64,000 nt of DNA from Nitrospirota bacterium (lineage in GTDB: Bacteria; Nitrospirota; Thermodesulfovibrionia; Thermodesulfovibrionales; UBA6898). Of the stretch, positions 7,072 to 27,764 are shown piece after piece; position 1 is the first letter of the stretch, and each line of letters starts with the position of its first letter. The stretch covers positions 62,001 through 126,000 of the forward strand of contig JAKAHR010000004.1 in assembly GCA_021825365.1 (NCBI GenBank). Direction: 5' to 3'. The notes beneath the pieces were generated by a model that searched no databases, was not told the origin of the DNA, and saw only the letters and a list, made by a program, of their open reading frames with translations. The translations under genes and the position numbers were made by a program.

Positions 7072-7170
7072 GGGTGATTCCCGAAAAGGCCGAACCCTTC
7101 GGAAGAAGGGGGCGGAAAGCGGCGGATCTTCCCAAGATGGAGAGATGGCCGAGCTGCCGAAGGAATTAAT
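7072..7170 (+). promoter_or_regulatory. GEMM-I type cyclic-dinucleotide riboswitch aptamer
   Basis: P1 is TGATTCC (7075-7081) with GGAATTA (7162-7168). The joining segment AAAAGGCCGAACC parallels the GEMM ACAGGGCAAACC core. P2 is CCCTTC-GGAA-GAAGGG (7095-7110) with a GNRA loop. Then comes GGCGGAAAGC (class consensus GACGCAAAGC), a P3 built from ATCTTCC/GGAGAGAT, and GGCCGAGCTGCCGAAGG (class AGCGGGGUUACCGAUGG or, in Geobacter-like examples, AGCCGGGUUGCCGAAG). GEMM-I binds c-di-GMP, or cGAMP in a Geobacter subclass; which one applies here cannot be read off. The alignment is by eye from memory. Confidence 0.65.
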
Positions 7171-17103: not shown

Positions 17104-17313
17104 GTGGAAGAATTCAGACTTACCGGCAGCGAATACATCGAACTGCACCGTCTCCTGAAGGTCACCGGCCTCTGCGCCACCGGCGGCATGGCGAAGAATA
17201 TGATCGCAGAGGGAAAGGTCTCGGTAGACGGGACCGTGGAGTTACGTAAAAGATGCAAGATACGACCGGGTCAGACCGTCGCTTTTGAAGGCCATACCCT
17301 ATCTGTCGTCTGA
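17104..17313 (+). CDS. S4-domain RNA-binding protein (YbcJ family)
   Basis: 69 residues forming a single S4 RNA-binding fold: IELHRLLKVTGLCATGGMAK, then MIAEGKVSVDGTVELRKRCKI and RPGQTVAFEG. This is the pattern of the small YbcJ/YaaA-like stand-alone S4 proteins, which probably bind rRNA or tRNA; the exact target is unknown. The start is GTG 17104. Its last 15 bases overlap, tail to tail, the extended (selenoprotein) reading of arsS on the other strand. Confidence 0.88.
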   Translation: MEEFRLTGSEYIELHRLLKVTGLCATGGMAKNMIAEGKVSVDGTVELRKRCKIRPGQTVAFEGHTLSVV

Positions 17314-18375
17314 TCGCTCCACCATCATCCCACCCGGTTCCTTCTTCTGCAGGCCACCTGCCTGCTGCGGGATTGCGCCTCCTCAGGTCGACCCCTGCCC
17401 TGCGGTGCATGCATAGCAGTGGTCAGCCACATTTATTTCCCTGCCACTCAGCCTGGCCGGGTCGAACTCTTCGATAGTCCGGGGATATCCGGCGGTGACA
17501 CCGACCCCAAGCGCCAGGTTAAAATCGCAGTCGTGGAGCCTTCCGTCCCAGCCGACGCTGACGATACGCCTGCACATCAACCCGGAGGTCGTCCCGGGGT
17601 TGAATGCGCCCGACAGCAACTCCATATATCCCTGAAGGCCGTTGGTCTGAAGAAGAAAATCCCTGAACCTGCCGGCAGGCACGTTCGAAAAGGCATACAA
17701 CCGGTCAAACGATACGCCGTACCTGCTGCCCAGTTCTCTCCGGAAATCGTCTTCGAGTGACTGCTGCGGCGCGGGCAAAAAGGCGCCCGCGGGGTTATAT
17801 ACGAGGCACAGTCTTCTGTCCTCCCTGCCGCCGCCATATCCAAGCGCATTTAATTTCCGGAGGGCCGCGATGCATCGCTCGAACGTCCCCCTGCCGCGCA
17901 CCTGATCCACCCCCCGCGGCGTATAGCAGGGAAGCGAGGCGACCACCTCGACCGAGTGGCCTGCCAGGAACGAAGGCAATCGCTCCATGCCGGCCTGCAG
18001 AAGGACCGTAAGGTTCGTCCTCACCAGCACATGGCATCCTGCTCCGGTGGCGCCCGCAACCAGGTCCGCAAATAAAGGGTTCATCTCCGGCGCACCGCCG
18101 GTAATGTCAAGCGTGCGTATGCCCGAGGCCTTCACCGCCCGGAGGACCGCCCCGGCTACGTCCCTGCTCATCTGCCGCTTTCCGCCCGGCCCGGAGTTGA
18201 CATGGCAATGCCTGCACGCCATATTGCAGCGGTCGCCGAGATTCATCTGAAGGACATCAACGGCGAGGGCAGTCAACGGGGCTGACCGGACATCAAACAG
18301 CCTCTCCCTGAATGCCCTAATGGTACCGGTCGCCTCGTTTGCGGTGCCCTGTCTCGTCGCGGCGTGGATAATCAT
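17299..18375 (-). CDS. arsS: Arsenosugar biosynthesis radical SAM selenoprotein ArsS (UGA read as Sec331)
   Basis: Radical SAM enzyme of the ArsS family, thought to transfer the 5'-deoxyadenosyl group to methylated arsenic. The cluster motif C-N-M-A-C-R-H-C begins at residue 50; DITGGAPEMNP and the C-terminal DCDFNLALG follow. An ordinary call stops at TGA 17383-17385, just after HCYACTAGQGST. Reading through gives Sec-Gly-Gly and 25 more residues to TAG 17299. This is the place where the family, named as a (seleno)protein in TIGR04167, has Cys or Sec before Gly-Gly. A SECIS-like hairpin lies 23 bases after the UGA. No arsM is visible. A GTG at 18378 is an alternative start. Confidence 0.85.
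17347..17367 (-). other. Bacterial SECIS-like hairpin in arsS
   Basis: On the minus strand GCAGGC pairs with GCCTGC around the loop AGGTG, with one further C-G pair below an A/A mismatch. The loop starts 24 bases after the UGA and its AGGU equals the start of the E. coli fdhF SECIS loop (AGGUCU). Distance, stem length and loop G fit the general bacterial SECIS pattern. Confidence 0.7.
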
Positions 18376-18388
18376 CACGTCTTATCCC

Positions 18389-18416
18389 ATTATAAAAAAT
18401 GCATCGGAGATTTCAA
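18389..18416 (-). promoter_or_regulatory. Promoter of arsS, nearly leaderless
   Basis: On the minus strand TTGAAA (18411-18416), 16-base spacer, TATAAT (18389-18394). The -10 box ends 13 bases before ATG 18375 (10 before GTG 18378), leaving a leader of only a few bases. It diverges from the cysteine desulfurase promoter. Confidence 0.65.
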
Positions 18417-26318: not shown

Positions 26319-27764
26319 ATGGGTATCGAACGTCTCAGGAGGATCGACGAAACACGACTAGAAGTTCCCATCGACTACCGCGAGGGGATGCGCGTGCACG
26401 GGATCATCTATGCTGACAGCGTCCTTGAAAAAGGCCTCGAGGTCCAGTGCGTCAACCAGGTGGCGAACGTCGCCACCCTCCCCGGCATTGTCAGGGCATC
26501 ATCCGCCATGCCGGATATCCATATGGGCTACGGCTTTCCGATAGGCGGGGTTGCCGCCTTTGATGTCAGGGATGGCATCATATCACCGGGCGGTGTGGGG
26601 TACGACATCAACTGAGGGGTACGGCTCCTCAGGAGCAGCCTCTCCAGGGGAGAGGCGCTTCCGAGGATCAGGGACCTCGTGGAGGTCCTTTACAGCGACG
26701 TCCCCTCGGGGGTCGGATCGAAGGGCAGGATCAGGCTCGGCTCTGACGACGAACGGAAGCTCCTGCTGAAAGGCGCGCGATGGGCGGTCGAACACGGCAT
26801 GGGCGAGGAATCGGACCTCGAAAAGACGGAGTCAGGAGGCATGATCGACGGCGCCGACCCCTCGCTCATAAGCACCAAGGCGTATGAACGGGGCCGCAGC
26901 CAGCAGGGCACCCTGGGGTCTGGCAACCACTTCCTTGAGATACAATATGTCGACGAGATCTACGACGAGAAGGCGGCGAACAGCCTCGGCCTTTTCCCGG
27001 ACCAGGTCACGGTAATGATCCATACCGGATCACGGGGATTCGGACACCAGGTATGCACGGACTTTCTCGAGGTGATGGAGAGGGCGGTCGGCAAATACGG
27101 CATCTCGCTTCCTGACAGGGAATTGGCCTGTGCTCCTTTCAGCAGCCCCGAGGCCGGGGATTACCTTGCAGCGATGCGGGCGGCCGCAAACTATGCATGG
27201 GCCAACCGCCAGTGCATCACGCACTGGACGCGGGAGGCCTTCATGAAGGTGCTCGGAAGATCGCCTCAGTCACTCGGCATGGGGCTGGTGTATGACGTTG
27301 CCCACAATATCGCAAAAGTGGAGGACCATGTGGTAAACGGGAAGAAGATGAAACTGGTAGTGCACCGGAAGGGAGCCACGCGGGCCTTCCCGCCGGGACA
27401 CCCTGAACTGCCCGCTGCATACCGCCACATAGGCCAGCCGGTCCTCATCCCCGGGGACATGGGCAGGGCATCCTTCGTCCTCCTCGGCACGGAAAAGGCG
27501 ATGGAAGAGACCTTCGGCTCCACCTGCCACGGAGCAGGAAGGGTGATGTCCCGCCATCAGGCGATCAGGAAGGCCAAAGGCAGGGCGATCTGGAGAGAAC
27601 TTGCAGACCGTGGTATCATTGTCCGGTCCGCCGGACGGGAGACCCTGGCAGAGGAGATGAGCGAGGCCTACAAGGATATCTCGGAGGTGGTTGATGTCGT
27701 ACACCGGGCGGGGATATCGAAGAAGGTGGCAAGGCTCAGGCCCCTCGGCGTGGTGAAAGGATAG
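26319..27764 (+). CDS. rtcB: RNA-splicing ligase RtcB, predicted selenoprotein with Sec99 at the active-site Cys position
   Basis: Joins RNA 2',3'-cyclic phosphate and 5'-OH ends with GTP and Mn2+. The frame is continuous over 481 residues except for TGA 26613-26615, codon 99. It interrupts the invariant active-site block [16 protein letters not shown] exactly at the metal-binding Cys (Cys98 in the Pyrococcus enzyme). Everything else is intact: the [10 protein letters not shown] His (204), [10 protein letters not shown] His (235), VAHNIAK His (329), and His404 in STCHGAGR that carries GMP; length equals the family norm. A SECIS-like hairpin follows the UGA. Reading it as Sec fits better than a pseudogene. 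ATG 26319 has a GGAGGTGAGG site. Archease lies upstream and mqnA follows. Confidence 0.9.
26634..26659 (+). other. Bacterial SECIS-like hairpin in rtcB
   Basis: AGC (26634-26636), bulged A, GCCTCTCC (26638-26645), loop AGG, GGAGAGGC (26649-26656), GCT (26657-26659): eleven base pairs with one bulge. The loop begins 31 bases after the UGA and has G at its second position. This fits the published general features of bacterial SECIS elements as I recall them (UGA to loop 16-37 bases, G among the first two loop bases). Confidence 0.72.

Follow-up and report, generated by a model that had tools for sequence, protein, structure and literature searches.

The window, by which we mean the whole stretch of 64,000 nucleotides analysed here, appears to carry a gene for an ArsS protein with a C-terminal selenocysteine (Sec), directed by an RNA hairpin at 17365-17349; the usual stop codon is lost, and the protein would end in an unstructured tail. 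We hold this reading to be right with a probability of nearly nine in ten. The protein is of an already known kind, from a selenoprotein family listed since 2005: TIGR04167 appears as a predicted selenoprotein family with the motif GxxU, credited to the bSECISearch work (PMC9312934, PMC13188914). What is mildly new is the place of the SECIS element, conserved in the 3' UTR or straddling the stop codon in ArsS genes, and its turning into coding sequence by stop loss. A literature search that covered few subscription papers found no report of this SECIS-at-stop arrangement.

Table 1. Features of the arsS region (positions in the window).
Feature	Position	Strand	Basis
arsS, radical SAM protein, TGA 17385-17383 very likely read as Sec	17299..18378	-	TIGR04167, Pfam DUF3641 and Radical_SAM
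UGA, probable Sec codon at invariant Cys/Sec position	17383..17385	-	C or U in all 65 aligned sequences
Apical hairpin of the putative SECIS, GCAGGC-AGGUG-GCCUGC, 6 bp	17349..17365	-	covariance model, covariation
CAG codon where relatives have a stop (mostly TAG)	17365..17367	-	27/33 Sec-ArsS of the order
Run-on of 22 extra codons from CAG 17367, then TAG 17301-17299	17299..17367	-	without counterpart in most relatives
Overlap of arsS with convergent S4-domain gene, 15 bases	17299..17313	both	3' end of S4 gene
Promoter-like site TTGAAA-16-TATAAT, 11/12 consensus	18389..18416	-	consensus scan only

The frame starts with a GTG at 18378 or an ATG at 18375, and its 3' part on the minus strand, translated with TGA as Sec, reads ...HCYACTAGQGST-TGA(17385-17383)-GGAIPQQAGGLQKKEPGGMMVERSDDR-TAG(17301-17299). 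Translation reproduces the Gly-Gly and 25 further codons that the first-pass annotation had described between TGA and TAG. The overlap that it had seen with an S4 gene on the opposite strand is there as well: the convergent plus-strand neighbour, which encodes an S4_2 domain (86.7 bits), has a TGA that ends at 17313. At the other end of arsS, the near-consensus promoter stops about 10 bases short of the start codon, so that the mRNA would be leaderless or nearly so.

Against TIGR04167, for which the curated cut-off is a whole-protein score of 300 bits, the product scores 394 bits, 94 above that limit. The match covers positions 3-303 of the 303 in the profile and reaches its last position, four residues past the Sec codon. 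Pfam matches are to Radical_SAM and DUF3641. The CxxxCxxC motif of the SAM cluster and the further conserved cysteines of TIGR04167 are present, as is the Cys/Sec position before the C-terminal xG motif, where GST-U-GG aligns with, and replaces, GSS-C-GG; the protein also differs from the family model in running 22 residues beyond the usual stop. Eight Cys positions are invariant in the alignment of 65 ArsS homologues (A2, numbered from ATG 18375): 50, 54, 57, 268, 283, 320, 323 and 331, the last being Sec in the window and either C or U throughout. The proposal that this gene is an ArsS with Sec at the C-terminal Cys position of its family is borne out by this alignment of C-termini, and none of the 65 homologues ends ahead of that position. 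As in other twitch/SPASM radical SAM proteins, whose folds are the closest to it, C50, C54 and C57 should bind the SAM cluster, and C268, C283, C320 and C323 an auxiliary cluster. With these seven given to clusters, position 331 would be free for chemistry, and its Sec or Cys is likely to be a ligand or a redox residue acting on arsenic. No solved ArsS structure came up in a sequence search, and the matches of a fold search were all to other enzymes of the radical SAM type, SkfB, EpeE and SuiB among them.

Is Sec decoded in this organism? The genome searched (91% complete, 52 contigs) contains selA (587 bits), selB (374 bits, positions 1-578 of the 581 in the profile), selD (353 bits) and a tRNA-Sec with the anticodon TCA (UCA), a full set for a Sec-decoding genome, as the first-pass annotation had supposed. 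Every full-length ArsS found in the taxonomic family of the window has one in-frame TGA. Both Sec and Cys members occur across the order and the phylum, and homologues with Cys at the Sec position are plentiful (50 Cys and 46 Sec rows on the tree). On these grounds of sequence, Sec decoding at the arsS UGA is very likely. ArsS had also been taken to support a claim of Sec in the RtcB protein of the window, and a Sec-decoding genome does lend that claim support, if indirectly. The RtcB gene (26457-27761 on the plus strand, 588 bits) has one in-frame TGA, at 26613-26615, within the motif DIN-U-GVR, which we take to be probably a conserved metal-binding Cys position. Hairpins lie downstream of this TGA, and the two features together are consistent with a Sec-containing RtcB. 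The selD gene of the genome itself carries an in-frame TGA (L012, C16:328-1254), and another contig holds a further selD-like stretch, partial and likewise with a TGA (L013, C38:13819-14130).

The hairpin behind the arsS UGA was described from the outset as a bacterial-type SECIS element at a normal distance, and this description stands. Its loop, AGGUG, lies 23 nt after the UGA, and its energy is -10.0 kcal/mol. It agrees with the published bSECIS criteria (PMC13188914) and shares with that consensus a 6-bp stem, a 5-nt loop with G at position 2, this loop distance and an energy below -7.5 kcal/mol. Taken alone, it is weak evidence, because an arbitrary TGA of the window is followed by an equally good hairpin in 2.0-3.5% of cases (22/1086 and 41/1159 by strand) and because its single-sequence folding is not better than that of shuffles (z-score -0.88). 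Comparison, by contrast, is decisive in pointing to a SECIS element. A covariance model (R1) built from 29 relatives, with the window left out, gives the hairpin 42.4 bits, to which conserved codons beside the UGA contribute a part (E 5e-11 in the window, 2.6e-9 in the genome). The second-best place in the whole genome reaches 14.9 bits. As that search for further SECIS elements yielded ArsS alone, the model is specific to ArsS and not a general SECIS finder. Among the 29 relatives the stem covaries: 94.8% of cells are paired, as against 27-46% when the stem is slid along the alignment, and none of 500 shuffles matches it in paired cells and covariation score. The loop G and the spacing from the UGA are conserved in Sec-arsS hairpins, the loop lying 21-26 nt after the UGA in nearly all of the 30 Sec arsS genes from the order whose ends could be read; two of the genes (L108 and L110) have weaker versions of the hairpin than the others. 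Only 4 of 47 Cys arsS genes of the order have a strong hairpin at the matching place. An Rfam scan of the window for SECIS elements matched none; its sole match was a c-di-GMP-I-GGC riboswitch aptamer at 7080-7162 on the plus strand (65.8 bits).

The UGA at 17385 might of course be an ordinary stop, which is its meaning in the standard code. The protein would then end ...GQGST, with its cluster cysteines already in place, and the remainder would be 3' UTR. We regard this as very improbable, since the Cys/Sec column never varies among the aligned homologues, the sel machinery is complete, and the UGA is followed by a conserved, covarying hairpin that most Cys members lack. Insertion of Sec into ArsS in vivo is what the comparisons would lead us to expect.

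Where the gene ought to stop is told by its relatives. The usual ending of a Sec-arsS gene is U-x-G-[AS]-[IV]-x-TAG, in which the hairpin stem opens with the final G of TAG; the SECIS element would thus be 3' UTR in most relatives. A tree of 96 ArsS sequences includes 33 Sec-ArsS genes from the order (the clade of the window). Of these, 27 have their stop (TAG, TAA or TGA, mostly TAG) six codons after Sec, and the hairpin begins at or just behind it. The six others have CAG in the window and in L110, GAG in L098, GGG in L027, GCC in L108 and GTG in L026; they are scattered on the tree, and their tails, compared by eye, differ from one another in length and sequence. Cys members, too, mostly end a few residues past the Cys. 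A short C-terminus being the norm for ArsS, the tail in the window is a stop-loss run-on, most likely accidental. Confidence in the AlphaFold model is good up to about residue 330, and pLDDT is below 50 for residues 336-352; the tail is unconserved and predicted to be disordered, and would be without function. The change from TAG to CAG could itself be a sequencing or assembly error.

This does not agree with one idea of the first-pass annotation, namely that the tail is there chiefly to carry the SECIS element: with their stop six codons after Sec and the hairpin behind it or across it, most relatives have no need of a tail. On that view a coding location would be the functional norm and the extension its consequence. 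Six of the 33 genes do read past the usual stop, yet the short ending of the other 27, the usual location of the stop codon (UAG or UGA) within the hairpin in the Geobacter/Desulfobacterota-type clade, and the dissimilarity of the existing tails leave it with very little credit; the SECIS element is inside the coding region in the window owing to stop loss, and not so in those 27 relatives. Least probable of all is that the hairpin, GC-rich and at a gene end as it is, might be an intrinsic transcription terminator rather than a SECIS element: no U run follows it (the longest run of T is 0 in this gene and 1-2 in most relatives), a terminator scan gave none at the end of arsS, loop G and UGA spacing are conserved, and most Cys members do without it.

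Some of these stops deserve a comment of their own. Four Desulfobacterota-type genes (L049, L051, L054 and L057) have a stop UGA inside the SECIS hairpin, so that two UGAs about 18 nt apart would be read differently, first as Sec, then as stop. Two genes of the same order as the window (L104 and L028) end in a UGA that stands immediately ahead of the SECIS element or within it; this UGA must terminate despite a SECIS element within a few bases.

Returning to the reading that we favour, a Sec-containing ArsS with a lost stop, its mechanism might run as follows. With the ribosome at UGA 17385, SelB with Sec-tRNA would bind the hairpin, and Sec would go in where the ArsS family has Cys. A T-to-C change would have made the stop TAG into CAG, whereupon the ribosome would pass through the hairpin and add 22 residues of unstructured tail. 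It is conceivable, though we think it unlikely, that a stop at the foot of the SECIS element or inside it is itself selected: release of the ribosome there would keep the hairpin folded, with SelB on it, for the ribosome that follows, raising Sec insertion. If this coupling to termination were true, the TAG-to-CAG change in the window would be a natural loss of it.

How does this compare with what is known elsewhere? Recent reviews assign bacterial SECIS elements to coding regions (among them PMC13188914), with PMC10778597 wording this location as 'often'. The ArsS family differs, its SECIS element lying at or behind the stop and being translated in the window through stop loss. In DUF466 (KCU-star) selenoproteins the UGA is directly followed by TAA or TAG, with the SECIS element downstream, past the stop (PMC4607533). 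As in ArsS, Sec is C-terminal and the element reaches past the stop; unlike ArsS, Sec is the last residue, and the protein family is a separate one. Mammalian TrxR has been produced recombinantly in E. coli with a SECIS element in the 3' UTR, which demonstrates that a bacterial SECIS element behind the stop works (PMC10778597), in an engineered and not a natural arrangement. Judged by its sequences, the ArsS family is a natural exception to the rule of coding SECIS elements, with a precedent in DUF466.

As for the role of the protein, other ArsS proteins have been reported to adenosylate dimethylarsenite, and by analogy the ArsS of the window would do the same. In five members of the same order (L121, L122, L123, L124 and L128) a Cys-type ArsS and an ArsM-like methyltransferase form one fused protein of about 660-690 aa, and the arsenosugar genes TIGR04282, TIGR04283 and TIGR04169 adjoin Sec-arsS in relatives. 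This context suggests that the ArsS of the window may make an arsenosugar intermediate from methylated arsenic. TIGR04283 is present in its genome (241 bits); ArsM was not found over its cut-off in that genome, 91% complete (best 58.8 against 263 bits), and a second search was empty, which counts against the favoured reading.

For the organism, the finding confirms Sec decoding. With reference to annotation, it is a warning: a gene model that ends at the Sec UGA drops the invariant Cys/Sec residue. It also corrects the rule given in recent reviews, as bacterial SECIS elements need not be coding. Finally, the ArsS genes offer a natural collection of SECIS elements on which only RNA selection acts, several of them secondarily translated; it could help to tell RNA constraints from protein constraints and to build better models for SECIS search.
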